From: Prorocentrum cordatum
Taxonomy: Eukaryota > Sar > Dinophyceae > Prorocentrales > Prorocentraceae
Length of the DNA: 64,000 nt
Assembly (NCBI GenBank): GCA_963575745.1
Contig: CAUYUJ010014263.1
Coordinates: 339,104-403,103 of the forward strand
Reading direction: 5' to 3'
Shown here piece after piece: positions 3,320 through 64,000 of this stretch. The notes under the pieces were generated by a model. The model saw nothing but the letters and a program-made list of their open reading frames with translations. It did no database searches and was not told where the DNA came from. Position numbers and translations under genes: made by a program. The stretch's first letter is position 1. Each line of letters starts with the position of its first letter.

Positions 3320-4097
3320 TCTAGTGGCTGTCGGCCCAATCCGTCGCCGTGCTTGGGCTATGGGTCAGGATCCTCTTGGATGAATCTGAGATTCTCTTGG
3401 GATACCTCTCAAAGGCCTCTTGGAGGGCTCTTGGGTGCATCTGGGAGGCTTTGGGGGGCCTCTTGGGGGCCTCTTGGGGGCTTCTTGGGGGCGTCCTGGA
3501 GGACTCTTGGGGCCTCTTGGGGGTGCCTCAGGGGTCTCTGGGGGCTCCTTGGGCCATCTTGGGGGGAACGGCTCGAAATATCAGTTTGCATTCCTCCTCT
3601 TGGGCTCTCTTGGGGCCCTCTTGGAGATTTCTTGGGGCCCCTGGGGCCGCCGTTTTGGGGCCCTCTGCTGGGTCTCCTCGGCCGTCTTGCGACGACCCTG
3701 GGGGTCCCTTGCGCGACCTTGGGGGTCAAGGCAAAAAAGGCGAGGGTGCCAAACATTCACGTTCTCCGAAGGAAGTGTGACGATTTGCGTGTCTTGGAGC
3801 CTTCTCGGCAGTCCTCTGGGAACACGTTGGGGCCGTATTGGGGGCTTTGTTGGCCGTGTCTTCTCGGGTCGTCGTGGGGCTCCTCTGGGCCGTCTCGGCG
3901 CTCTCTTCGACTATGTTGGCGATCTGTCTGGGCCCTCTTGGAGCTTCATGGGGGCTCCGAAAGCCTCAGGGGTGCGTTTGCGAGTTAGTACCACAATCCC
4001 AGGGGGGGGCCTCAAACGGCATTTTGGAACCTGGGGGAGGGGGACAGCCAATCATCTCACACGCCTTTTCACCCCTGGCAAGCGGGGGACGGCGGAC
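3320..4097 (+). repeat. IE copy 1 (CTTGGGGCC interspersed element)
   Basis: About 780 bp of degenerate CCTCTTGGGGG units. The head is CTAGTGGCTGTCGGCCCA followed by CCGTCGCCG. Island A (TATCAGTTTGCATTCCTCC) is near 3570 and island B (GGCAAAAAAGGCGAG) near 3728. The tail (about 4030-4097: GGGGGACAGCCAATCATCTC, then CAAGCGGGGGACGGCGGA) is nearly the same as the end of the intron at 62148-62964, so this copy looks full length. Confidence 0.7.
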
Positions 4098-14631: not shown

Positions 14632-16897
14632 CTAGGGGAGCCAGGCGGCTCGGGCATGCGCCGCGGCCATCGGATGCGCGGCGCAAGCCTCGCGCGCACA
14701 TTGCGCCAGCGCCTCGGCCGCGCTAGACGTGCCGCTGTGCCGTCGCGCCGCCATGGCGGAATGCACAGCAAAAAGACAGACTGCTCTGCGCGCCAACTCA
14801 CTGACCGTGTCGGGCGTGAGCCGGGGCTGGAGAACCAGGAACTGGTCGAGGTCGGCGTGCGTCACTCCGAGCTTGGTGCGCGCGAAATTGGCGATCGTGG
14901 GGCAACATGCGTAATGGCGTATACTGACCTCGCCCCGCCCGCACCCGAATACACATGCCGCCCGTGTCTGGAAATTCCGCGGCGTCGTCCAGCCGTTGGC
15001 GTACGTCTTGAACAAAACCGCCCAGACGCGAGGGGACACCTCGCGAGCCAGACCCTGCAAGACGGCCGTGGCTCTTTCCACGCGCCTGCCAGGGAGGAGG
15101 TTTAAATTGTACTTGTCCAATTTCCAACGCAAATGCCGGAAAACTGTGTCCCGCTGAACTGCATGAAGTAGTCCGTGGCACCGCTTTCGCCATTCCGTGC
15201 GGGGCGTGGGCTGCGACGTCGAACCCTGCACGAGCAAGGCGACCGTGGTGATGGCTGAGCGCGCGAGATGATCCAACTTATCTTGGGCCTGCTGGATGTT
15301 CTGGAGAAAGTGAGAGCCGTACCACGTGTGCCAAGCCGCAATGCGGTCCCAGCGGTCGGTGTACGAGGCCAGGGTGCGCAGAGCCGCCTGCCGCCGTGGG
15401 ATCCGGAAGCCTCCGTCCGCGCTGTTCTCCCACCTGTGGACGCGGCACTTGGCAGCCAGCGCGTACGAGTGAAGGTTTGGAAGCTCAGTGTGGAAGCCCA
15501 GGACCCGCAAGTTCCGCAGCGTGCCCGGCGGAGCCCAACCGCGGGGGCCAGGGAATAAAATAGTGCACAACTTAATCTCCACATCCTCCCAGGACGAAGG
15601 CACCCGGTCCAGTTGGATGAGGAACGAGAACAACGGAAATATGTAGAAGCGATATGCCATGATGGTAAGGAGGAGGCCTCCCCCCACCGCCCTCCAGAGC
15701 CGAGCCCGCTGGATGGCCTTCTCGATTGCCTTGTTCCAGGTCCGGTCGCCGCGCTCCGGGCCGACCACGAAGCCCAAGAATGTGGCGTACCTCCGGATGT
15801 CGAAACCCGCCCAGGTGGGCGCTGCGGCATGCAGGTCGTCTCGAACGGCTGGCAGCAGCGTCAAGCATAGCGGGACCCACACTGATTTGCCGTGGTGTAG
15901 GCGGAGACCCGATGTTGCCGCGTACTCATGAAAGAGTGGCTCTAGGACGGCGGCGTCGCGGGCGCCCCGGGCGAGCACGATGGCAAGGTCGTCGGCGTAT
16001 GTGCGGGGAGCAGCATCTGGGATCGCGCGCAGGAGGCGGCGGAGGAGGACGTCGGAGACGATGGAGAAGAGGAGGTGGGAGAGAGGGCACCCTTGGCGAA
16101 CAACTGCAGTTAAAGCGAAACCTGCATAGCTGTGACCGCCCACCTTGATTCGGCAGTTGTTGGCCTGGTAGATCGCTTTTATGAACCGGATGCTCCACGG
16201 AGGCCACCGGCGAGAGGCGAGCACGTCCATCAGAAACTCCTGCGAAATGCTGGGGAACGCAGCCTCGAAGTCGAAGAAGGCCGCGGCGGCAGAGTCGTGG
16301 GTCAACGATGCCTTCAGCATCTCTTCCTCGATGTCGACGAGGTTGGATAACATGGACCTCCCCTTGATGAAGCCTCTCTGCACCTTTGAAACCCCGCCCT
16401 CAACCAGCGGCTCGATGCAAAGTCGTACGGCGCTGCAAAGTATCCGATTATCAGCGTTGGTGATGTTGAGTGGCCGAGTGCTGCTGGCAGTGAACGTTTC
16501 GACGCCTTCCGCTGTAGTGCCCACGGGCTTCTTGGGGAGGAAAACCATAACGCTCTCGTTGAAGTCAGCCCTATCCTCCTCCAGAAGTTGCGCGCCATTC
16601 TCCCCAACGATGGCGAGGAACGCGTCGTGCAAGGCCTTCGCGGCCACGTTGCCAAGCCGGCGCCAGGCCTTGAATGGGATGCCGTCCGGCCCTGGCGAGG
16701 TGTTCGTCGGACGTAAAACGGATGGCCTTCTTGAAATCCCGCAGCGTGACGGGGCGATGCGGAATGGAGTCGCGCGCGTCTGGGGGGAGAGAAGCGGCGT
16801 CCTCAGCAAGCCACGTCCTCCGGGTCTCGTGGTCGGTGACCTTCCGCGTGAAAACCTTGGACCAATGAGTGCGCAAGCTCCGGGTGTGACCGACCAA
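14632..16897 (-). pseudogene. Non-LTR retrotransposon reverse transcriptase, 5' truncated, one frameshift
   Basis: This encodes the polymerase of a LINE-type element, which copies element RNA into DNA at a genomic nick. In order the frame shows PGPDGIPFKAW, the ADNRIL and GFIKGRSML boxes, motif A (FDFEAAF, near 16255-16280), motif B (RQGCPLSHLLF), the catalytic box YADD (15988-15999) and, near the C-terminus (about 14905-14962), a zinc-knuckle-like run CVFGCGRGEVSIRHYACC. The catalytic aspartates are intact. A frameshift at about 16700-16710 separates the main frame from its N-terminal continuation (WSKVF ... LRDFKKAIRF, 16710-16865). Above that the open frame runs into a 17-bp tandem repeat and a GTAT microsatellite, so the annotated N-terminal His/Thr/Tyr sequence is not protein. 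No endonuclease domain is present. It is very likely a 5'-truncated copy. Confidence 0.85.
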
Positions 16898-17430
16898 ACC
16901 GTGTGTGACCGACCAAACCGGTGTGACCGACCAAACCAGTGTGACCAGTGTGGCCGACCAAACCGTATGTATGTCCCCAGGACGCCAGAAATTCGCCTAG
17001 TGTTTCTGAGCGCCGGAGTCGAAATTGTGTACAGTATTCGCTGCGTTGATGGAAACAATGTATGTATGTATGTATGCATGTATGTATGTATGTATGTATG
17101 TATGTATGTGTGTATGTATGTATGTATGTATGTATGCAGGCATGCAGGCATGCAGGCATGCAGGCATGCAGGCATGCAGGCATGCATGAATGTATGTATG
17201 TGTGTATGTATGTATGTATGTATGTATGTATGTATGTATGTATGTATGTATGTATGTATGTATGTGTTTGTGTGTATGCACTTGTGTGTATGTATGTGTG
17301 TTTGGACGGACGGGTGGATGGATGTACGGTTGAATGGATGTATGCTTGCATGCATGAATGTATGTATACGTGCGTATGTCTGTATGTGTGGTTGATTGTT
17401 TGTATATATGGGTGCACATGCATACGTAGA
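16880..17430. repeat. GTGTGACCGACCAAACC tandem, then (GTAT)n microsatellite
   Basis: Four to five 17-20 bp units of GTGTGACCGACCAAACC lie at 16880-16965. A GTAT microsatellite follows at 17059-17430, with a (GCAG)-type block at 17135-17185. Confidence 0.85.
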
Positions 17431-17431
17431 T

Positions 17432-17965
17432 GTGTCTTGGCCTATGGCCCATCCCGCCACCGTTCTTGGGCTGCGGGTATAGAATCTCTTGGATGGTCGT
17501 TGGGATCTCGTGGGGGGCCTCTCGGGGGCCTCTTGGAGGAAGTTTTGAAGCCTCTCGGGGGCCGCTTCGAGGCAGTTTTGAAGCCTCTTGGTGCCATTTG
17601 GATGCCGCTCGGGGCTTGGGCCTCTTGGGCGCCTCTTAGGGGCCTCCTGGGGGCCCCTTGGGGCTGTAGGCTCGGATTTTCGGTTCGTGCTCCTTTCTTA
17701 AGAACCTTTCGGGGCCGTTTTGGGCGACTCTTGGGCCGTCCTGGAGCGCTCTTAGGCCGTCTTGGGGCCTCGGGGACCTCTTGTGCCGTCTTGGGGTGGC
17801 CTTAGGAGCCTCTTGGGCCGTCTTGGGGCGTCGGAAAGCCGAGAAGGTGAGAACGCCCAAATCCTTCAATAATCAACGGACAATCCGTGATTGTTGCCTC
17901 TTGGGGCCCTCTTCGGGAGCCTCTTGGAGGCCTCTTGTGGCGTCTAATTACATTTCTCGCAGCAG
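17432..17965 (+). repeat. IE copy 6
   Basis: The head GGCCTATGGCCCAT is followed by CCCGCCACCGTTCTTGGGCT. Island A (CGGATTTTCGGTTCGTGCTC) is at 17672-17692 and island B (GGAAAGCCGAGAAGGTGAGA) at about 17830. Then ATTGTTGCCTCTTGGGG. The conserved tail seen at 4030-4097 is missing. Confidence 0.7.
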
Positions 17966-40110: not shown

Positions 40111-40700
40111 CCCGCCACCTTGCCTGGGTTACGGGTTCCAGGCTTCATGGATGTTCGCTGAAATCTCGTGGGGGGCCTCCTGGAAGCACTTTTGAAGTCT
40201 CAGGAGGGCCGCTTTGGGGCCTCCCAGGGGCATCTCGGGGCCTCCTGGGGGCTTTTGGGCGCTTCTTGGGGCCTCCCGTGGGCCTGTCGGGGCGGAGGGC
40301 GCGGATTTTCAGTTTGTGTTCTCTGTATGGCGCCTCTTTGGGGGGCCGTTTTGGATCATCCTGGGCCGTCTTGGGCACCTTCTTGGGCCATCCTGGGGCA
40401 TTCTTAGGTCATTTGGGGCCCTCTCGGGAGGCCTCTTCGGCAGTGTTTTGGGGGTGGTTTTGAGGGCCGCCTTGGATCGTCCGAAACCCGGCTAGGCGAC
40501 AACGCCAACATATTTCTTCCAAGCGCGGGGAGAAATTAATGATTGTTGCCTTTGGAGGTCCCCTTGGGAGACCCCTTGGGGGCCGTTCGGGGCGCATTGG
40601 AAGCCTCTTGCGCCATTGAGGCCATCTTGGGCGTCTTCGAGGGATCGTTCGGCGCTTCGGGGCCCTCTTGGACCGCCCGTGTTGCCCAGGTCCCCCCGGG
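40111..40700 (+). repeat. IE copy 7
   Basis: The head CCCGCCACCTTGCCTGGGTT is followed by CATGGATGTTCGCTG and ATCTCGTGGGGGGCCTC, matching the head of copy 6. Island A (GCGGATTTTCAGTTTGTGTT) is at 40301-40320 and island B at about 40478-40510. It then reads ATGATTGTTGCCTTTGG. It ends the RT fragment on its left. Confidence 0.7.
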
Positions 40701-41369: not shown

Positions 41370-41523
41370 TGGGTTGTGGGTCTGAGGCCTCTTGCATATG
41401 TGCTGGGGTGTCGTGGGGAGTTTCACACGAGGCGGTTTCGGCGCCTCTCGGGGGCCTCATGGGGCCTCGTGGGGTATATTTTGGGCCTCTTCGGGGCCTC
41501 TTGGGGACCCCTGGGGCCTCTTG
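41370..41523 (+). repeat. IE copy 8, left part (split by a retroelement)
   Basis: CTTGGGGCC-type units run up to 41523. The last 18 bases (41506-41523) recur at 47621-47638, immediately after the retroelement, and the IE continues from there. Confidence 0.65.
41506..41523 (+). repeat. Left target-site duplication of the retroelement
   Basis: GACCCCTGGGGCCTCTTG here and GACCCCTGGGGCCTCCTG at 47621-47638 differ at one base of 18. The host repeat is internally repetitive, so chance similarity is not excluded. Confidence 0.6.
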
Positions 41524-41544
41524 CCATAACCATGTTGGCTCAAG
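41524..41544 (+). other. Relict dinoflagellate spliced leader
   Basis: Matches the 3' 21 bases of the known DinoSL at 18 positions and ends in TTGGCTCAAG. A T to G change creates an ATG at 41532. The DinoSL is added to nuclear mRNA 5' ends by trans-splicing, so a genomic copy marks a reverse-transcribed mRNA. Confidence 0.75.
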
Positions 41545-42114
41545 ATGCCTCAGCTCCCGCGGTGTCCAATGGATACCGCTGGGCCGCGGACAGATCAGGA
41601 GATTTCGGGGGCAGCGCCCCTTCAACGTACGGTACCCGCGCTGGAGTTCGTGTCATGGCGGCTGGGGGGTCTCCGTGGCGCGGCGGATGCAGCGGGAAAG
41701 GCATGTGGTCCTGCAGCTGTGGGGCGGCCGACAACTTCGCGACGAGGAAGCATTGTCGTGGGTGTGGATCACCAGCACCACGGCGGCCAACCACCTTTAA
41801 GGAAGCGCTGATGGGCCCGAACAAGAGGGAGGCGGCAATGCAGAAGAAGCTGGACGCACTCACGCAAGAGCTCACGGCGCTCAAGGGGGGCGGCAAGGTC
41901 GGCAAGTATGAGAAGGCGGACGGAGAGAAGGTTGCACCGCAGGTCGACCTTGCGAGGTTCCACAAGTGGGCGCAGGCGTGCAAGAGTGAGCGGGGCGAGG
42001 ACTCGGAGGAGTACAACGCAGCGTATGCTAAGTACCAGGCGGCCAGGGCTGAGAAGGACAATGCCAAGCCGCCTTCTGCGCAGCTCACGCAGGCAAAGGA
42101 CGCCAGGGAGAAAC

Positions 42115-43541: not shown

Positions 43542-44710
43542 GCCAGATACATGCAGGTGCTGGAGCGGGAGGCTTCCCAGGCACGCGGCATGGAGTGGGA
43601 TGCGGACGACCCGCATGCGGGCAGGGCGGAAGAGCCCAGGTGGCGAGTTCAGCTTCTGACCTTCGGGGGCGCGAACGCACCGACAGCGGCAAGGGCAGCG
43701 GCCTGGTGGAGATGGGCCGCGCGGGCCCTGCGCAGCTTGCAGGGCGCGTACCAGCGGCGGCGGAAGGCAAACGAGATGGACCCTGACAAGCTCCAGAAGC
43801 GAGAGCGCGAGGTCTACGGCACGGGGAAGCTCGTCCAGGCGCGCCCCCACCGCGTGAAGTACATTGGGGTCGCGGACCAGGGCATATGGCAGGCCAGGTG
43901 CGACATGATCGTCGCGGGCCAGCTGAGGGGCGTCAGCAGGGAAGCGACCGCCCAGGCGTGGGCGCAGGAAGCAGAGAGCAGGATGAAGGCAGTCGACCAG
44001 CAGCTCCACAGGGACAGGAAGGCCAAGTGGGGCGACAAGCTGGGGATCGCTGCGGCAGGAGCGGCAGGAGGGCTTCACAAGATGAGCAAGGCAGCTACGG
44101 TGTGGGGGCCTCGGAGGGCATATGCGATGGCGATAGCGGCGGACCCTATGGGGGCGGCGGAGCTCACCCTGGCCGAGTGGAAGGACGTCTGGCGGGTAGG
44201 CGAGGCGTTTCAGGAGGAGCCGAGACCTTGAGAATACTACCCCAGGATGGGGTGGACGACTTCACCGAGGAGGACGTCTGCAGGCTCAAGGCGGTGGCCC
44301 GCACCTTCAGAAAGCGCACTGGAATGATTGGGGTGGACCGATGGCGCCCGTCAGTGCTTCGGGGAGCGAGTGACGAGGCGCACCACAGGCTGCTGGACAC
44401 AACGCGGGAGGTGGAGCGCACGCTGAGGTGGCCGATTCACATGGGCACGGCGCTGTTTTTCACTATCCCGAAGACGTTTACCCCTGATAGGGTCATTGGG
44501 CTGTTACCCACCACCATACGCCTATGGGAGACCACGCGGGAGCCGTACATGGTCAGGTGGGCAAAGGAGAATCAGAGGAGTTGGGATTGTACCTGCTTCG
44601 GCAAGGCGGCGGAGGACGCAGCATGGGACGTGCTGCTGAGCCGCGAGATGGACGACCCAGAGGACGAGAGCGAGGAGCTGGAGGCAACGATCTTGCGGCA
44701 TTGGGCTTGA
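43542..44710 (+). pseudogene. Retroelement linker and N-terminal part of the reverse transcriptase
   Basis: From the TAG the same frame continues to a TGA at 44229 (a helical basic linker with EMDPDKLQKREREVYGTGKL and KLGIAAAGAAGGLHKMSKAA). The sequence then resumes in another frame with GVDDFTEEDVCRLKAVARTF, GVDRWRPSVL and the RT fingers region (TIPKTFTPDRVIGLLPTTIR, then WAKENQRSWDCTCFGKAAED). This matches the RPIGLLP..R.W arrangement common in dinoflagellate LINE polymerases. It ends at a TGA at 44708, where the reading frame must change again just before motif A. Confidence 0.65.
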
Positions 44711-47571
44711 CCAAGGCTTTCGAGCGGGTAAGTTTGTATGTCGCATGGGTTGCGGGCAAGCAGATGAACTTCAACACGGGCGTGCTGGCGGTGGTGTGCT
44801 CGTACTTCGCGATGGCGCGGAGGTTGATTGTCGGGGAGTCCGTCTCTAGTGCCACCAGCACGGTGGGCACGATCGTAGCAGGCAGCAAGTTCCCGGTGTG
44901 CTTCCTGAAGTTGGTCATCCAGTCGGCATTGGACGGCCTCGTGGCAGAAAGGCCGCGGGCAAAATGGCGCATGCACGCGGGTGATCGTCGCGCGCGGCTT
45001 CGCCAGCAGCAGAGGTGCATCGTGAAGGACTTCAGCGACACAATTGATGCTTACTTCGAGGGCTTCGACAAACTGGGCCTGAAATGCTCGGTAGGAGCTC
45101 AGGGCAAAGGAGCCGTCATGGCCAGTGCCAAGTGGGTGCGCAAGGCGGCGGCGAAGGCGATGAGCGCGCGTGGGCTGCCTGTGGTGCGTGCATGCCCGCA
45201 TTTGGGCGTCGATCGCATCGCGCGCGGCACAGCGACGAAGGCCAAGAACGGCAAGCGATGCAAGACTTTGCTGGGCAGGAGCAAGCGGCTCGCGAACCTC
45301 CAGGGCGGCGGCCGCAAAATGGCGAAGGGCGCGGCGTTGGTCTTCAAGTGCGGCTTCAAGCGCTCGGTGATGCATGGGTGCGAGTGTTTGGGCATGCCAG
45401 ACCACCAGTTACGACGGCTGCGGCGAGAAGCGGGGCGAGCATTGCCAGGAGGGCGTGGAGCCAAAAGCCTCACGCTGCAGCTGGCGCTGGCGAATGAGGG
45501 GCCCACCTACGAGGCTACGGAGGCACCCATTGCCCGCTGGGCGCGGGCAGCATGGGAGACATCGTCAAGGGCTGGGCGGTCAGAAGCAGACCCCGAGCTA
45601 GACTTGGGTTCCACAGCGCCACGTGCTGGACGAGCAGGAGTAAATCCAGGGCACGACGCAGGTTCCACGTCGCCACGTGCGGGGCGGTCAGGGACAAGCC
45701 TCGAGCACGCCTTGGACGACGCGGTGGATCTGCCGACGAAGGCGTGGAGGCGCCAGCAGCAAGAGGTGGGCATGAAGCCCGCGTGGGCCAGGGTGCGAGG
45801 GCCCGCGGGGGCGGTGAGCATGTCGCCCAAGCGGGCGCAGTGGACTTGGCCAGCTTGGCATGCGGTCAGCACCAAGGACGGTTACGAGCTGGACATGAGG
45901 AAGGTGTGCCCCGTGGACGTGGTGGCGATGCTGAGGAAGGACGCACAGCTGAAACTGTGGCAGGATTGGACGGCCGCGGACAAGTATGCGAGTCCACGGC
46001 CAGCACCGATGGTGGCCCCAGCGGTCGCCCAGCTGAAGGCGCGGGGCTTCCCTAAGCACGCCAAGAACGCGGCGAGGAAGGCTTTCATCGGCGGGAACTG
46101 GTCCATGAGCAAGCTATGTGCGAGCAAAGTCGCGCCGACGGACATCTGCTTGGCGTGCGGGGGGGCGGTGGGCACCCCGCATCACAGGTATTTCAAGTGC
46201 CAGGCCTTGAGGGCGCAGGGGCTGAAGGCGCAGCCTGAGTGGCAGACGGTAGCTGAGCAGCAGGAGGACAGCTTGCTCTGGACGCGGGGGCTGGTGAGGC
46301 ACCCAGAGGCGGACTGGAAGTTTGAGGGCGTCGATGAAGGCCAGGTCATGTGCCAGGTCGTGGAGGGTGACGAAGACTACTTCACAGGTGACATCGCGCG
46401 CGACGGGTCCAAGCTCGTGCACAGCGAGTGGGCGCAGACGGGCTGGGCCGCCATGTCGATCAACGAGAGCGGGGGGCCGAAGTGCCAGATGTGGGGGCCA
46501 CTGCCGTGCACGCTCCCAGCGCACAGGACGATCAAGCGCGCGGAGACGCGGGCCTTCTACATGGTGCTGGAGCAGAAGCTCGGCGAAGGCAACATCTACA
46601 CGGACCACGAGGGCATCATCGAGGGCTTGCAAAAGGGCGAGCGCTGGTGCATCGGCTGGAAGCGGCCACACGCGGACATCTGGAAGCGCATCTGGCACAA
46701 TATACGGGATCTCGACCTGGATATGAACGGGGTGATCCATGTCACGGCGCACAGGTCCATGGCGAAGATCGAGCAGCTCACGGGCACGGAGCTCAAGATC
46801 GCGAAGGGCAACGCGGAGGTCGACCTACTAGCCAAGGCGGGGGCCGAAACGGACGCGAATTATGGGAAGCACCAGGCGGTGGAGGCGCTCGCTGGCCGTG
46901 TACGCTGGGGGGTGCAGAATATTGGCTGGTGGCATCAGCAGATGGAGGGGGAGTGGCCAGACGTGCCGAAGCGTGAACGTGGGCGACCACTACGCCGTCG
47001 GCCGAAGCCACAGATCGCCCTGACGCGGCACGAGGTGAAGGAGTTCGGCGGCTGGATGTGGTGCGTGCGTTGCGGCAGGCGCGCGGCTACACAGCGAATG
47101 AGGAGGAAGCTCTGGGAGGCGGACTGCCAGCCGCCGCCGTGGACCACAGCGGGCGCGCACAAGTCTGGCATGGTTGGTTCCTTGGAGGCGAGCGTCGCGG
47201 TGGTTATGGCCGCGTCGGCAGCAGCTCAGGCAGTAGCGCAGCCAGCAGGAGTACAACCAAGGCGGGCACCAGCAGTGCCAGCGCAGGTAGGCGGCCTGCG
47301 ACAGCACAGAGTGGAAGTGCATGGGCCGTATGTTGCGTGCATCGAGTGCGGTGCGTACTCGGCGCGGAGGCGGGCAGGCCTGGGGCCCGCGTGCACGGGG
47401 CCGCTAGCCAGGAAGGGCCTCAGTGCTAAGGACGACGCCAAGCGGAAGAAAAGGAACCGGATCCTGGCGCACAAGAACCCGCAGACGGGGAAGCCGCTGG
47501 ACCATGAGCTCCAGCTACCAGTGCGACGTGGGTTGGGTAAGCACTACGTGGGGATCTATGTGAAGATCTGA
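44697..47571 (+). pseudogene. Reverse transcriptase palm, zinc knuckle and RNase H
   Basis: One long open frame (open from 44524, homologous from about 44697). Motif A reads LGLTKAFERV, with Gly where catalytic Asp is expected (44704-44706). Motif C reads MHAGD where Y-x-D-D is expected (44974-44985). Polymerase activity should therefore be lost. A zinc knuckle follows (CLACGGAVGTPHHRYFKC, 46147-46200). RNase H (about 46385-46860) keeps all four acidic positions: DGS, RAETRAF, YTDHEG and GNAEVDLLAKAG. Two C-terminal cysteine clusters (CVRCG and CIECG, each with a later Cys) resemble those of other dinoflagellate elements. An 18-residue repeat (GSTAPRAGRAG type) occupies 45571-45720. The stop is TGA at 47569. 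Confidence 0.8.
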
Positions 47572-55529: not shown

Positions 55530-56884
55530 CCCCGAGGCGGGGACTGTGTCGTCCCGGCTTGTATTTTGACGGTCATGGGGCCCAGCGCGGGCCCCCAGCA
55601 CTCCAGGATTGAGAAGAGCTGGCGCTATGGATACCCTGGAGGCCTCAACGAATCGCCCCCCGCCCTGTCATGGGAAGCGTTCCGACCAGAAGTTCGAGGC
55701 GAATCCAGCCGTGGTGACGTGGGGGTCTCAGGAGGCCCACAGACGCCCAACGGTGTTAGGCAAGTTCGGACACTGGAAGCCGATCCTCGGCGCCAGACCG
55801 CCAAGCCGCGATTTGTTCACAGCCTCCCTGATGCTTCGACCACGCATGCCAGAGCAGTTCTCCATGGCCCTCGCGGGCCCCGAAGACGGCCTGGAGGCTG
55901 AAGCCGACGGACAAAAAACGGCCCAGACTGAAGCGACCATTCTGCCTCGAGGTCTGCGGGATCATGGATCTTCTGCGCCCCCGGCTGGCCGCCTGCGCCC
56001 TGGCTCCCCCCCCCCTCCGGAAGGGTGGCCCCGCCTGGGCGCCCCGCCCTGCATGCAGCTCCGCGCGCCCCGCGCCTCTCAGCCCCATCCCCGCTCGTCT
56101 CGCCCCTCCCCCCCACCCCACTCCTCCTCCTCCTCCTCCTCCTCCTCCTCCTCCTCCTCCTCCTCCTCCTCCTCCTCCTCCTCCTCCTCCACCCGCTCTC
56201 TGCTGGGGCCCCGGGCCCACTTCGATACGATCTGGCCCCGGTTCGGTGTCGGTCCCGGCCGGCCCGATCCGATCAGGTTCCCATTCCGATGTTTCGGCGA
56301 TCCCATGCGGCCCGTTGCTGCATGTCGCGGGTGTGCGCGGCCGATCCCACCCGGTTCCTATTCCGTGCAGAGGTGGCCCGATTCGATGCAGGTTCCGATC
56401 CGATCCGATTTCTCGAGTCGATGCTGGCTGAGCCTGCCCTGCCGCATCCGACCGCTCCTCCTCGGGGGGAAACAGCTACGACCACGTGCAATCAGAGTGT
56501 TGGGATCAAAGGTCCGCTCTAGGTTGCAGGAAGGGCTCGATGTTCCTTGCGCCATTCCACGGGTTTTCCTGTGGGGCGCAGGGTTCCTCGTGCATCTAGG
56601 TGCTGCTGGGCCTCATCTCGGGCTTCATTCCTCAACCCAGGCTTCCTCATGACAAAACTCCGACTGCACGGCGGCGGCGGCGGCTGCCGCGGCGACGGAT
56701 TCCGTTCAGGTTCTGACCCTCACGGTCGGTCTCCTTGCCTCGTGTGCGCGTCTCTTGCAGAGGAAACACACGACAGACACTGTTCGACACAGCCGCGGTG
56801 CGGTTTTTGGCTTGCTTGTTCCGCAGTCGAAAAAGAGCGCAGTGAGTGTCAAGTATCTGCGCATCCGTGCCGCCTCCCTGCTAC
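55530..56884. other. No recognisable gene; (CTC)n tract 56117-56192
   Basis: A frame of 347 codons at 55609-56652 spans the (CTC)n tract and has no motif, and frames on both strands cross the same interval. Unassigned. Confidence 0.4.
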
Positions 56885-56901
56885 ACACATATATATATAC
56901 A

Positions 56902-56954
<53 letters not shown>

Positions 56955-57212
56955 GGATGTGTTGTGTGGATGTGCTGTGTGTGATGTGTGTGTGTGGTGC
57001 GTGCGTGTGTGCTGCATGTGTTGCGTGTTGTGTGTTGTGGTGTGTGTGTTGTGTGTGTTGTGTGTGTTGTGTGTGGTGTGTGGTGTGTGGTGTGTGTGTT
57101 ATGTGGTTTGTGTGTTGCGTGTACGTGTGTTGTGTGTGTGTGTCGTGTGTGCTGCGTGCGGTGTGTGTGTGTGTGTGTGTTGTGTTGTTTGTTGTGTGTT
57201 GTGTGATGTGTG
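56885..57212. repeat. (CATA)n/(TA)n and (TGTGTG) simple repeats
   Basis: (ATAC) and (TA)n at 56885-56955, then GTGTGTTGTGTGGTG-type repeat to 57212. The RT frame downstream reads through it, giving a meaningless Cys/Val run. Confidence 0.9.
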
Positions 57213-58310
57213 TGAAGGAACATGGAAAACCAAGCAGCGCGGGATCCCACACCTGCCAAACAGCGACGGCTTTCTGAACAACTTACGACTTGCCGACGGC
57301 ATCCTCCTCATTGGACGATCAAGCAACGACATCACCAGCATGTTGTCCGATATTAGCATCGAAGCGGCAGACGCCGGGCTACTACTGAATCCAGACAAAA
57401 CCAAAATTTTGCATAACGGATACAGACCAAAAAGAGCACAACGACCGCCTACCCACGTCCTCGTCCACAACATGAAGATCGAAGTGCCCCCACCTTACCG
57501 AGCAACTAAGTATTTAGGGCGCAAGCTCCAATGCAGCGACAGCCACAAGACGGATGTGGAGAACCGGATTGCTTCGGCATGGAGAAAGTGTTCTTCATTC
57601 AAGCAGGAACTTATTGGAACGCACTACTCACTGAACAACCGTATTCGGCTATTCCACGGAACAATTACTCCAACGGTGCTATATGGTTGTGAGGCTTGGA
57701 CGATGACACAGGAGCTCGAGAATAGGATTCGAAGGACGCAACGACAAATTCTCCGGATGATAGTCAAAACGCCTCGACGAAGGCTTGCTGGCAACCACGA
57801 CTTCGAAGACGGCACCGGCGGCAACGACGCCAGTGGCAGGAACGACAAGGACTCCAACGATTCCGGCACCGACGGTGGAGGTGATGTAGACAGTGTGGCA
57901 CCATCTGTACAATCAGCAGCAGACGATCTCGAGGACACCGACCCACTCGAACCCTGGTCAGACTGGATCAAACGAGCAACTCGACATGCAGAGAGTGTTA
58001 TTCCTAAACTACGTATTATAGATTGGACCGCGTCTGTCAGACAGCGCAAGTGGGAATGGGTACGCACGGTTGCAACCAGCACTACGAAAGAATGGGCACG
58101 AACGGTTTTGCAATGGGACCCAGGAGGTGATATACACGGACAGGCACATCGACGAGCTGGCCGCCCCAAGGCCAGGTGGTGGGACGATCTATTACGAAAC
58201 GCACAGCAGTGCGTGCCGGATGCACCACATACCGTGGCAGACTTGTTTCAGGCCCCCGGAGACCAGGACACAGATAAACCAGGACACGGAAAACCAAGGA
58301 AACGACATCC
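57213..58310 (+). pseudogene. 3' half of a non-LTR reverse transcriptase (RTE/L1-like)
   Basis: The fragment starts just before motif C, which reads LRLADGILLIGRS where FADD is expected (Gly codon 57298-57300). It continues with GLLLNPDKTKIL, PPPYRATKYLGRKLQ, the thumb motif LYGCEAWTMTQELENRIRRT followed by QRQILRMIV, then WSDWIKRATRHAESVIPKL, DWTASVRQRKWEW and HRRAGRPKARWWDDLLRN. These last blocks are the usual C-terminal signature of this LINE type, which lacks RNase H. The fingers and motifs A and B are missing because the copy is 5' truncated at a TG-rich simple repeat. A low-complexity Asp/Gly/Asn/Ser insert (57800-57950) interrupts the family pattern. The frame is otherwise open to 58392, so the copy may be fairly young. 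Confidence 0.85.
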
Positions 58311-59269
58311 TTTCCTGCAAAGTCACGTTTTTCAGCACCCATTCATATTTTGTTTGCTGCACTGCAGGATTCGGGATTGTGTCCAGGTTTAGGGGGTTCT
58401 TGCAGGCTTTCGAGGCTTGTGTCCGGGTTTATTTTGGAAATGCTGCAGTGCAGTATTTTGTTCGTGCCGCCGTTTGGAAAAATTGGTTTCGAGGGATATT
58501 GGGTGTCCGGGTCTAGCGTGTCCGGGTCTACGGGGCCCTGATTGTTACATATTGCAACCACGGTTTGGGGCAATATCCAGCCAGGATACGTCACGCAATG
58601 AGTGAGGGAGCCGGCACGTCGTAATTACTTAATTTTCTTATGTTTCACATGCATAGTTGTTGTATATACGATTACAGATTGCATTTTTCTTTTGTCCATC
58701 CTCTGTTGGTCTCTCTCTGTCTCTGTTTTCCTCTTGTTGGCTAGTCCCTTATCTCACCGTCGTCAATTGTCACGCATGGCGGCGCCCCGGCGCCCACCTG
58801 CAGCGCCCCCGCGGCGCCTCGACTGCAGGCCGATGTCCGATGTCCGATGTGTGTTGCGTGTTGAATGCGTGGTGTATGTAGTGTGTGGTGCGTGGTGTGT
58901 GGTGCGTGTGTTGTGTGTTGTGTGCGTTATGTCGTGTGTGGTGTGTTGTGTGTTCTGTGTTGTGTGGTGTGTGGTGTGTGTTGTGTGGTTGTGGCGTGTG
59001 GTGTGTGGTGCGCGGTGTGTGGTGTGTGTTGTGTGATGCGTGTTGTGTGGTGTGTGGTGTGTGGTGAGTGGTGAGTGTGTTGTGTGGTGTGTTTTGTGTG
59101 TTGTGCGTTGTGTATATATACCTTTTCTCTCTCTATCTTTGTTATTTCTCTCTGTCTCTCCCTGTCTCTCCCCCTCCTGCATGAGGACGGGGGGGAGGAG
59201 AAGGAGGGAGAGGAGAAGCCCATGATCGACCTTTTCAGCTGATCGCACAAGATGATCATGCAGGGTCCT
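58311..59269. other. No recognisable gene; (GTGTGGTGT)n tract 58850-59110
   Basis: 58350-58540 has short repeats of GTGTCCGGGTCTA type. 58850-59110 is a TG-rich simple repeat like that at 56950-57210. Confidence 0.5.
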
Positions 59270-61223: not shown

Positions 61224-61230
61224 TTTACAC

Positions 61231-61303
<73 letters not shown>

Positions 61304-61305
61304 TA
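61224..61305 (+). repeat. (CAT)n microsatellite
   Basis: About 26 CAT triplets directly before the relict spliced leader. A short (CAT)n also closes the window at 63983-64000. Confidence 0.9.
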
Positions 61306-61328
61306 TCCGTAGCCCTGTTGGGCTCGAG
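61306..61328 (+). other. Relict dinoflagellate spliced leader upstream of the membrane-protein gene
   Basis: Starts TCCGTAGCC, an exact match to the first part of DinoSL, then TGTTGGGCTCGAG against the leader's TTTTGGCTCAAG (three substitutions, one inserted G). It sits 66 bp before the start codon. It marks the gene as derived from a trans-spliced mRNA reinserted in the genome. Confidence 0.65.
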
Positions 61329-61394: not shown

Positions 61395-63492
61395 ATGACG
61401 TCCTCGGAGAGCGGCTCGGAGAGCGTCCGCGAGGAGATCGAGACCCAGGTGAGGGCCGCCACGGCGGAGTTTCGGAGGCAGCTCCAGGCTCTGCAGGCGC
61501 AGGTGGCCGATCTGCAGCGGCGCGAGCGGGCCAGGGCGGGGCAGGAGCCCGGGCATGGCGCAGACGTGGCGGGGCAGGCGTGCCAGAAGGGTTCGGAGTT
61601 GGTTGACGGTTTGAGCAGGGGGCCAGAGGAGGAAGAGGAGGAGGAAGAGGTGCAGGAGATGGAGGATTTGCCCGAGACGCTTTTCTCGTACTGCATGGCG
61701 CAGCTGGCGATCAATCCCGAAAGTATCGCCGAGCCGGTTGCCTATTTGGTTCTACAGATCAGCATTCAGCTCGGATTGGCGATGTCTTTCGTATCAGCAA
61801 CCGTCGGCGAATTCTTCGATCTGCATTGGAACGGGCTTGAGATGACACCTAAGTTGTGCTTATACCACGAAAACGTCATAAACCACCACCCATATCAAGA
61901 CATATTTGCCGCCATTTGCTGTTTCTGTCTCGCCGCCGTGTCTATGATGGCCGATGACAAAGAACTATTATCATGCATCTACCCAAATAGGTCCCATTCC
62001 CTACGTGTTCGCGCAGTGGCCACCATCGCTTGGTGCTTTCAGGGCTTCGTCGTGCCTTTGACTTTGTTGGCCTCGATTCCTGTCCTCATGGCAAACAGCA
62101 TGACTGCTGTTGACGTGGTAATGAATGGTCTTGCCGTGCTGTTTATTCAAAAGGCTTACACCATGCCGCCGACCTCCAGAAGAGGGTAGAGTCCACGGTT
62201 GAGCCGTCGTGGGTTTTTTGGGCACCACGTTGGAATTATTGTGGGCGTTTTGAGAGTTGTTTGGGAGCTTGGCGGAGCCTCTTGTAGGCAGTATTGTAGC
62301 GGGTTGGGGGCCGCCTTGGGGCCTCTTTCGGGCATTTTTGGGCTTATTGGGGGCCTCGTTTGGGCCGCTTGGGGGCTTTTAGGGATCTGGGGGGGCCTCT
62401 TGGTGCGGAAAGATAGGATTTTCGGTTCGTGTTCTCCCTCTTCGCTTGTCTTGGGGCCCTTTGAGGGCGATCTTTGGCCGTCTTGGGCCCCTTTTTGGGC
62501 CGTCTTGGAACTCTCTTCGACCGTCCTGGGGCCCTCGAAGGGGTCTCTTGGGCAGTTTTCGGGCGGTCTACGCGGCCTCTTGGGCCGTCTTGGAGAGTTG
62601 GAAGCTCGAGAAGACGATAAACGCAGAAAACACCCACGGAAAACCATTGCCTTTCGGGGCCATCTTGGGAAGGCTTTTGGGGCGTCTCGAAGGTGTCTTG
62701 GGGCGTCTTGGAGCCATCGTAGACGTCTTGGGCCAATCGTTCCGCGATTCGGGGGCCGTCTTGGAACGTCTCTGAGGCCACGGACGACAGATTTAGAAGC
62801 TCCGGAGTCTCTGGGGGTGCGCCGACGAGACTGGATGACCCCACCCCCCCAACCTCCCCCCCCTTGATCTGGATTTTGGACCCTGGGGGAGGGAGAAAAA
62901 GGGAGGGGGACAGCCAATCATCTCACCCGCCCTCTCGTCCCCAGCAAGCGGGGGTCGGCGGATTCTTGATGTCGATGACATGTTGTACGTACTTGTGCCA
63001 TCGTCTTCTCGCGACAGGCTCAAAGGACAGTTTTTGACACAGAGTTCTGCATGCCGATGGGCCAGATTAGATCCAGCAAACGTGGAAGTCGAAGCTTTCA
63101 TCATGGGTGCCTACAAATTCGTTTACCTGGTAATCTCCTACTTGACATACGTGGTATACATGTTGCCTGCGACCGGCCCGGCCTTGGCTGCATTGTGGTT
63201 CTCTGAAGACGACGTTGTTCATCGCGCTCTTGAAAATATATTCACGTATTGCATGCTGCCATGTATTAGCACATTCGCTTGGCATAAACCGGTGGACGCT
63301 CGTGATGCCATGACTACGATCGGACGTGCAGCATTCACAACCGTGTTTGGGGTGATCTTGCCTTTTTGCGTTGTGTTATTCCTACACAGCTGGTTTTTGG
63401 GCACACCTGGTTTGTCGGAGAGCAGCAAAATTATCGAGTGCTACAACACGACGTACGACGAGAGTGGCCCATCCGGTGGCATTGTGATCTAG
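61395..63492 (+). CDS. Multi-pass membrane protein with coiled-coil N-terminus (two exons)
   Basis: Exon 1 is 61395-62147 and exon 2 is 62965-63492, giving 426 residues with phase preserved at LFI/LDVDD. Residues 1-70 form a charged helix (EEIETQVRAATAEFRRQLQ) typical of coiled coils, followed by a poly-Glu run. Hydrophobic segments follow: VAYLVLQISIQLGLAMSFV, IFAAICCFCLAAVSMM, two within IAWCFQGFVVPLTLLASIPV and DVVMNGLAVLFI, then in exon 2 FVYLVISYLTYVVYMLPATG and FTTVFGVILPFCVVLFLHSW. This layout recalls a dinoflagellate-expanded family of unknown function (from memory, not searched). An acidic LDVDDMLY motif follows TM4. The start ATG is the first after the relict leader. No internal stop or frameshift, so it may be functional. 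Ion channel or transporter roles are only guesses. Confidence 0.7.
62148..62964 (+). mobile_element. Intron formed by IE copy 9 (introner-like)
   Basis: The intervening 817 bp consists wholly of IE sequence: degenerate CTTGGGGCC units, island A (GGATTTTCGGTTCGTGTTCT, 62417-62436), island B (GGAAGCTCGAGAAGACG, about 62596) and the conserved tail ending CAAGCGGGGGTCGGCGG. ATTC occurs at both edges (62145-62148 and 62962-62965). CCGCCGACCTCC (62166-62177) is the inverted partner of 62950-62961 at 11 of 12 bases. None of the possible cut points allowed by the ATTC repeat gives GT-AG ends. Confidence 0.65.
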
Positions 63493-64000
63493 GCGGCTTA
63501 AGCGTTTGTTTGCTCAGCGCCCGTAGTGTTGCAAACGCACAGCCATATCATCCCTCTTCTTATCCTTGCTGCACTTCCCGCTCCGCGACACGCGCCAGCG
63601 GACTCGCAGTCTTGGGCTGGTTGTTCTGCCGACCTTATGCGCGCGTGTGTTTGGCATGTGGCCGCGAGCGGCCGACTCCCGAAAAATTGTTGCTCCGCCG
63701 AAGGCGGTCATGCTTTTTATAATTGGTGAGCCCCGGGCAACAACATGCTTCTTGGAAGCCACATGTGTTTGATGGGTGTATGTCGAACGCACCTTCTGTG
63801 TTTGAATAACTTTGCGTGACATGGTGACGTCCGCGTGCACCGTTCTGTGCTAGGAGATCCGTTGTTTGTTGCAAGGCGCACTTGTCAATCGCATTGGCGA
63901 CGAAAGTAAGGAAGGTATCAATACCGGCCTGACGGGGCCTCTGTTAATTCTGATCATTATCAGCATCCCATCACCGTCCCATCATCATCATCATCATCAT
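63493..64000 (+). other. 3' flank of the membrane-protein gene
   Basis: No further exon, polyadenylation signal or repeat family is recognised until the (CAT)n run at the window edge. Confidence 0.4.

Follow-up and report, generated by a model that had tools for sequence, protein, structure and literature searches.

The bloom-forming, photosynthetic core dinoflagellate Prorocentrum cordatum carries, in the 64,000-nt stretch of DNA analysed here (contig CAUYUJ010014263.1, positions 339,104 to 403,103 of the forward strand; hereafter the window), a repeat-family element of 813 nt that interrupts the coding sequence of a multi-pass membrane protein gene. We consider it likely that this element is an introner, i.e., mobile DNA that has landed in an exon and that the cell takes out of the transcript as a new intron. 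The first-pass annotation of this DNA had proposed as much, and the proposal is strengthened by empty-site paralogues of two host genes, by three genes interrupted in the sense orientation and by host frames that stayed intact after insertion. The same family interrupts three unrelated genes, with element borders coinciding with exon borders. A dispersed copy would thus have inserted into an exon of its host gene, and the inserted copy would then be removed at the RNA level as an intron. The gene and its insert are laid out in the window as follows.

61395..62148, + strand: exon 1 of the multi-pass membrane protein gene, with its ATG at 61395 (from the open frame and the paralogue)
62145..62148, + strand: 5' ATTC, flanking direct repeat, its C near-constant in the family
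62149..62961, + strand: the element, a full-length copy of the repeat family, 813 nt (nhmmer model positions 1-827, E-value 8.5e-247; the model includes the window copy)
62166..62177, + strand: 5' subterminal inverted repeat CCGCCGACCTCC, 17 nt inside the element
62304..62711, + strand: body, with several stretches of degenerate 10-11-nt tandem units (TCTTGGGCCG-like; Tandem Repeats Finder)
62923..62948, + strand: pyrimidine-rich, acceptor-like stretch ending in CCCCAG (62944) and CAAG (62948), read from the sequence
62950..62961, + strand: 3' terminal inverted repeat GGGGGTCGGCGG, at the very end of the element
62962..62965, + strand: 3' ATTC, flanking direct repeat, read from the sequence
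62962..63492, + strand: exon 2, through the stop codon (from the open frame and the paralogue)

The gap between the exons is, as had been claimed, entirely one repeat copy, both of its ends matching those of the genomic family. One repeat period measures 817 nt (the 813-nt element plus one ATTC); the coordinates given earlier, 62148..62964, represent one register of the ATTC-element-ATTC unit. The window copy is 89.5% identical to a leave-one-out consensus, with 7 indels, and its body holds tandem arrays at 62304-62384, 62471-62508, 62546-62593 and 62677-62711. The ATTC direct repeats do flank it at 62145-62148 and 62962-62965. Inverted ends had also been described: the 12-nt repeats exist, but only the 3' one is terminal, the 5' one beginning 17 nt inside, an arrangement that does not fit a terminal-inverted-repeat DNA transposon (miniature inverted-repeat transposable element, MITE). 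A 24-mer from the element head (up to 3 mismatches) occurs at one place in the window, compared with a mean of 0.00 in 100 shuffles; an Rfam scan of the window gave no match, and the predicted RNA fold of the whole element is no more stable than that of shuffles (z -0.57).

A genome search recovered an element-free paralogue of the window gene (locus L048, contig C11530) that is 68% identical and has a single open frame through the insertion site, its protein running uninterrupted as VLFILDVDDMLY. At the DNA level this empty site reads GTG CTG TTT ATT CTT GAC GTC GAT, and the window gene, relieved of the element and one ATTC, reads GTG CTG TTT ATT CTT GAT GTC GAT. Apart from the element each gene is one open frame, and over their whole length they differ by a dN of 0.19 and a dS of 0.44 (NG86); Pfam has no family for the membrane protein. 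The upstream frame (...GLAVLFI) and the downstream frame (I/LDVDDMLY) have an ATT codon in common, at which they join; the phase match pointed out earlier in itself proves nothing, because any insertion into an exon yields it automatically.

We searched the assembly (4.13 Gb, 21,875 contigs) with the 817-nt unit, scored 40 among 4,753 first-look candidates and retrieved the 39 best other places, which are 74-84% identical to the query over much of the element length. With the window copy these make 40; eight without a head or tail (L011, L018, L024, L029 and L046; L033, L045 and L047) were left out, leaving 32 two-ended copies, among them some with rough ends (L028, L036, L037 and L038 included; a stricter earlier pass had n=26). 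A consensus of ~825 nt was built from 21 full-length copies, the window copy included, and the identity of each full-length copy to a consensus built without it is 84-92%. The copy-to-copy distance is about twice the copy-to-consensus distance, a pattern expected if the copies arose in a single burst and each then decayed on its own. Most copies having the respective ends begin (T)TATTC-AAGAGGCTTACGCCATTCCGCCGACCCCC and close CAGCCAATCATCTCACACGCCTTCTCACCCCCGGCAAGCGGGGGTCGGCGG-ATT.

When the flanks of the two-ended copies were joined and read in six frames, two further host genes were recognised, so that 3 of the 32 lie inside conserved coding exons: those of the window gene, of a dynein heavy chain (L034) and of a DUF1825 protein (L042), all three sense to the host gene. 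The interruptions of the dynein and DUF1825 genes are precise to one residue. The dynein gene is open for 270 codons upstream and ~800 downstream of its insert, with DHC_N2 (3.2e-61) and AAA_6 (2.6e-137; both Pfam) one on each side, and the alignment of its joined product with axonemal heavy chain 2 (9fqr_D0, E 9.9e-86, in a search of solved structures only) crosses the junction gap-free. The second gene encodes a DUF1825 domain (Pfam, 1.4e-18); its insert is now 2,226 nt long, the element copy itself having been interrupted by ~1.4 kb of extra sequence, and the host frame is intact. A second empty site is provided by a DUF1825 paralogue (L050) that is 76% identical, has no insert and aligns gap-free against the joined L042; the two differ by a dN of 0.13 and a dS of 1.26, and the ratio is nearly the same to either side of the insert (dN/dS ~0.1). 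Empty-site paralogues for two of the three genes (L048 and L050) point to recent gain.

At the other 29 copies we recognised no coding exon. A Pfam search of 20 of them (one best-scoring frame, ~40 residues per side) returned nothing at E<=1; of the nine copies not run, eight met a stop in their best-listed frame within 120 nt and L028 was left out. This check would miss a coding exon without a family, because the window gene itself has none in Pfam. A codon-usage score of the flanks was above zero on both sides in 2 of 32 copies (L042 and L034; the window gene reached -0.06 on its weaker side), with 4% of 2480 control readings above zero and genic and other copies poorly separated; we did not use it as evidence, and the three genic copies rest on homology. 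P. cordatum has 85,849 genes of 2,798 nt (PMC10666404), which over 4.13 Gb gives a coding share of ~5.8%. The 2 genic copies among the 39 retrieved (31 of them two-ended) are consistent with that share, and insertions into exons thus do not look purged, the numbers being small.

The position of the splice borders required separate consideration. In the window the registers of the join that restore the protein are AT..GG, TT..GA, TC..AT, CA..TT and AA..TC, none of them GT/GC/GA-AG, so the earlier statement that GT-AG borders are lacking holds at the protein-restoring borders. The gene models of P. cordatum, built with tools adapted to GT, GC and GA donors, are reported to use these at 24.7%, 51.4% and 23.8%, respectively (PMC10666404). 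Joined at the outer borders, the three genes would read VLFILDV (window, 62148|62966, ...CTGTTTATTC/TTGATG), VQDIMIA (L034) and GKEIFLD (L042). We lean towards removal at these outer borders, which would join ...TTTATT to CTTGAT with no GT/GC/GA-AG, as in the non-canonical introners of Amoebophrya; the inverted repeats may draw the element borders together.

The best surviving alternative, which we regard as unlikely but not slight, is that the ordinary spliceosome acts at GT/GC/GA-AG sites away from the outer borders, combining an acceptor in the element tail with a donor in the exon or element head, at the price of extra or changed codons. The tail does carry a pyrimidine-rich stretch before CAAG, with CAAG at -13 or CCCCAG at -17 as acceptors. 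We scanned for frame-keeping, stop-free combinations of a GT, GC or GA donor at -15 to +90 with an AG acceptor at -90 to +15. Some pairs add a net 1-3 codons (-11 or -8 with -13 in the window; -13 or -7 with -12 in L034; -14 with -13 in L042); others are common to the window and L042, e.g., GC at +19 or GA at +22 with AG at -13, adding 12-13 codons; and introners that recruit an exon site or add codons have been described (PMC9860276). Against this, within the scanned range the three genes have no frame-keeping pair in common at shared element positions. When the GC at +5 and the AG at -13, both belonging to the element, are paired, the frame shifts in the window gene and in L042 and is preserved in L034, the tail of which is one base short; pairs with an exon donor delete residues still present in the paralogues of the window gene and of L042, and frame-keeping GT/GC/GA-AG pairs are often expected by chance.

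The flanking repeats were compared across the 32 two-ended copies. A C directly precedes the head in 26 of them; ATT stands before that C position in 14 and after the tail in 21, with both in 10. The triplets on the two sides agree no oftener than when shuffled among copies. At the genic copies the flanks are ATTC (window), ATT (L042) and AGT / ATA (L034). ATTC as a target-site duplication is not proven, because the flank triplets do not covary and the 5' C is near-constant; it is a real direct repeat here, yet may reflect a fixed target site or belong to the element rather than being a duplication, and a fixed ATT target would mask a true duplication. The family's inverted repeat (CCGCCGACCCCC 17 nt inside the 5' end, GGGGGTCGGCGG at the 3' end) forms 11, 11 and 12 Watson-Crick pairs in the three genic copies, compared with a mean of 9.6 in non-genic copies, 9 of 26 of which reach at least 11 (L026, L028 and L038 dropped from this comparison). 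Better-kept inverted repeats in genic copies as a splicing signal are suggestive only.

We then considered the age of the inserts in relation to the state of the host frames. The window insert has accumulated 84/798 substitutions (10.5%) and 7 indels, that of L034 108/814 (13%) and 5 indels, and that of L042 ~10-11%; reading divergence as age takes the consensus as the ancestor. Unspliced read-through reaches a stop 14 (window), 92 (L034) and 72 (L042) codons on, and a translated insert was rejected on account of these in-frame stops. Under neutral decay of this extent, the 528 nt that follow the window insert would survive free of stops and frameshifts with a probability of 0.001 (4,000 runs), both sides of the insert survived in 0/4000 runs, and the 2400 nt of dynein frame would do so with a probability of ~3e-11 (calculated). 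Host frames that are open in genomic DNA despite 10-13% decay of the inserts make it most likely that the inserts are removed from RNA. The competing account, which we think improbable, is that the element is retained and that the three host genes are recent pseudogenes or genes for truncated proteins, their function covered by paralogues. Two of the three do have paralogues, 29 of the 32 copies lie where no coding exon was recognised and the downstream exon of the window gene is weakly constrained; the intact frames, however, include ~800 open dynein codons downstream, and the DUF1825 copy retains a dN/dS of ~0.1 on both sides of its insert.

Excision from DNA rather than RNA, in the manner of the internal eliminated sequences of ciliates (alveolate relatives of dinoflagellates), would suit the short direct repeats, the precise restoration and the lack of splice signals at the restoring borders, yet the assembly contains the element and no separate expressed nucleus is known in dinoflagellates, which leaves this hardly credible; the uninterrupted sequences sought were those of paralogues. 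An assembly artefact was rejected, the same arrangement being present on three different contigs.

Several observations weigh against the introner reading or the outer borders as its junctions. The neutral survival of the window's downstream frame rises to 4.5% if the insert is half as old and to 20% at a quarter of the age, and that exon differs from its L048 counterpart by a dN of 0.26 and a dS of 0.48 (NG86), indicating only weak constraint. There are just three genic copies, and sense orientation in 3/3 has a chance of 1 in 8. The three genes offer 23, 35 and 44 frame-keeping, stop-free GT/GC/GA-AG pairs, and six such pairs, which would add 12 to 32 codons apiece, occur in both the window and L042. 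The predicted pairing of the inverted repeats flips with the flank included, being paired in one fold and having a probability of 0.01 in another; folded with flanks, L034 gives 0.002 and L042 0.99. Finally, the case for removal at the RNA level is built on genomic DNA.

The window gene itself may have a particular history. Upstream of it lies the following feature.

61307..61328, + strand: candidate spliced-leader relict 5' of the gene, 18/21 bases identical to DinoSL, plus a 1-nt insertion

This candidate sits 67 nt upstream of the ATG; its score of 22 was equalled or exceeded in 6 of 20 simulated windows, making it weak and suggestive only by position. L048 also has a spliced-leader-like stretch, at its positions 140-159, with a stronger match (score 30). 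Spliced-leader relics are a mark of retrogenes in dinoflagellates (PMC12014239), and such relics upstream of both paralogues suggest that the window gene is a retrogene that gained its sole intron later, in which case the element would have given an intron-less gene copy its first intron. The host genes of L034 and L042 are intron-poor near the insert, for which a retrocopy origin may be the reason here too. Both are otherwise little interrupted: L034 runs for >1,000 dynein codons and the first 141 query residues of L042 match in one block, where its DUF1825 paralogue on contig C729 matches in pieces. The best spliced-leader match in the window (score 27) lies elsewhere, near 41400-41640 (+), beside a body-repeat match at 41431-41522, and (ATC)n-type microsatellites flank the gene at 61224-61305 and 63985-64000.

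Elsewhere in the window, the body repeat is found in 12 further nhmmer segments (E<=1e-3; 7 on the + and 5 on the - strand), which merge by eye into nine places, e.g., 17463-17945 and 40172-40681, and match the degenerate CTTGGGGCC body. The first-pass annotation's count of at least nine recurrences on both strands thus stands as a count of body matches, just one of which reaches an element end:

3368..4095, + strand: sole other window copy reaching an element end (the tail), including the nhmmer segment 3490-4095

Since the window relatives, with that one tail excepted, have in common just the CTTGGGGCC body and not the ends, the body may be that of a superfamily extending beyond the element itself. 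The G+C content is 55-65% in the window and 59.7% in the P. cordatum genome (PMC10666404). Long open frames that look retroelement-like by eye (reverse-transcriptase type) occur at 14632-17697 (-), 44491-47571 (+) and 56653-58392 (+).

How introns originate, and how they spread by the thousands without killing genes, is a long-standing question, and this family offers insertions of roughly known date, two genes with an empty site and three host genes for reading junctions. Should the outer borders prove to be the junctions, then introns lacking GT/GC/GA-AG are removed in a core dinoflagellate, and annotation limited to those donors has missed these. A broader view, which we put forward tentatively and would not wager on, is that a general mobile element, perhaps rolling-circle (Helentron-like), has become dispersed across the genome of its photosynthetic core dinoflagellate host, and that the copies lying in exons are taken out by a route guided by the borders or a hairpin and ignoring GT/GC/GA-AG. 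Were this true, Amoebophrya-type odd splicing would not be confined to the parasite, and current dinoflagellate gene models would miss such introns.

In comparison with known mobile elements, the window copy resembles non-autonomous Helentrons in its subterminal repeats, possible 3' stem-loop, tandem core and T-rich target (PMC4067079), and a tandem-repeat core is known in oyster Helentron relatives (PMC7492417); this resemblance, drawn from published descriptions, is a lead only. Introners occur in many lineages, with 548 families in one survey (Gozashti et al. 2022, PMC9860276) and 15 families of at least 100 introns in Polarella (Roy et al. 2023, via PMC11453091). Like other introners, including some with inverted repeats and short duplications, the family would consist of transposon-like repeats that create introns on insertion (PMC9860276). 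Unlike those surveyed, whose families have median lengths of 30-654 nt and GT, GC or GA donors (PMC9860276), the window element is longer than the family medians and lacks such a donor at the restoring border.

In P. cordatum an introner-element class has been defined by pattern inside predicted introns, with software altered for GT/GC/GA donors, and the window copy conforms to the pattern, having an inverted repeat of 8-20 nt and a direct repeat of 3-5 nt within 30 nt of each end (PMC10666404). Introners are thus already known, also as a class in this species; none resembling the window family turned up in the text, supplementary tables aside, of the literature searched on dinoflagellate introners, the P. 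cordatum genome and non-canonical introns.

The closest parallel drawn at the outset, to introners with direct repeats and non-canonical borders in Amoebophrya, agrees with their published description (Farhat et al. 2021, PMC7789003): they are multi-copy, with inverted repeats of 8-20 nt near both ends, and have direct repeats of 3-5 nt and no GT-AG at their borders. The systems differ in that non-canonical introns there average 120 and 240 nt, compared with 817 nt here, and are supported by RNA (PMC7789003), whereas the window family is known here from genomic DNA; the 5' inverted repeat of the window element lies 17 nt inside, and 29 of 32 copies here are without a recognised exon. Like the Amoebophrya introners, the window family is multi-copy and carries 12-nt inverted repeats near both ends; the borders that restore the protein show no GT-AG, although gene-specific pairs exist nearby.
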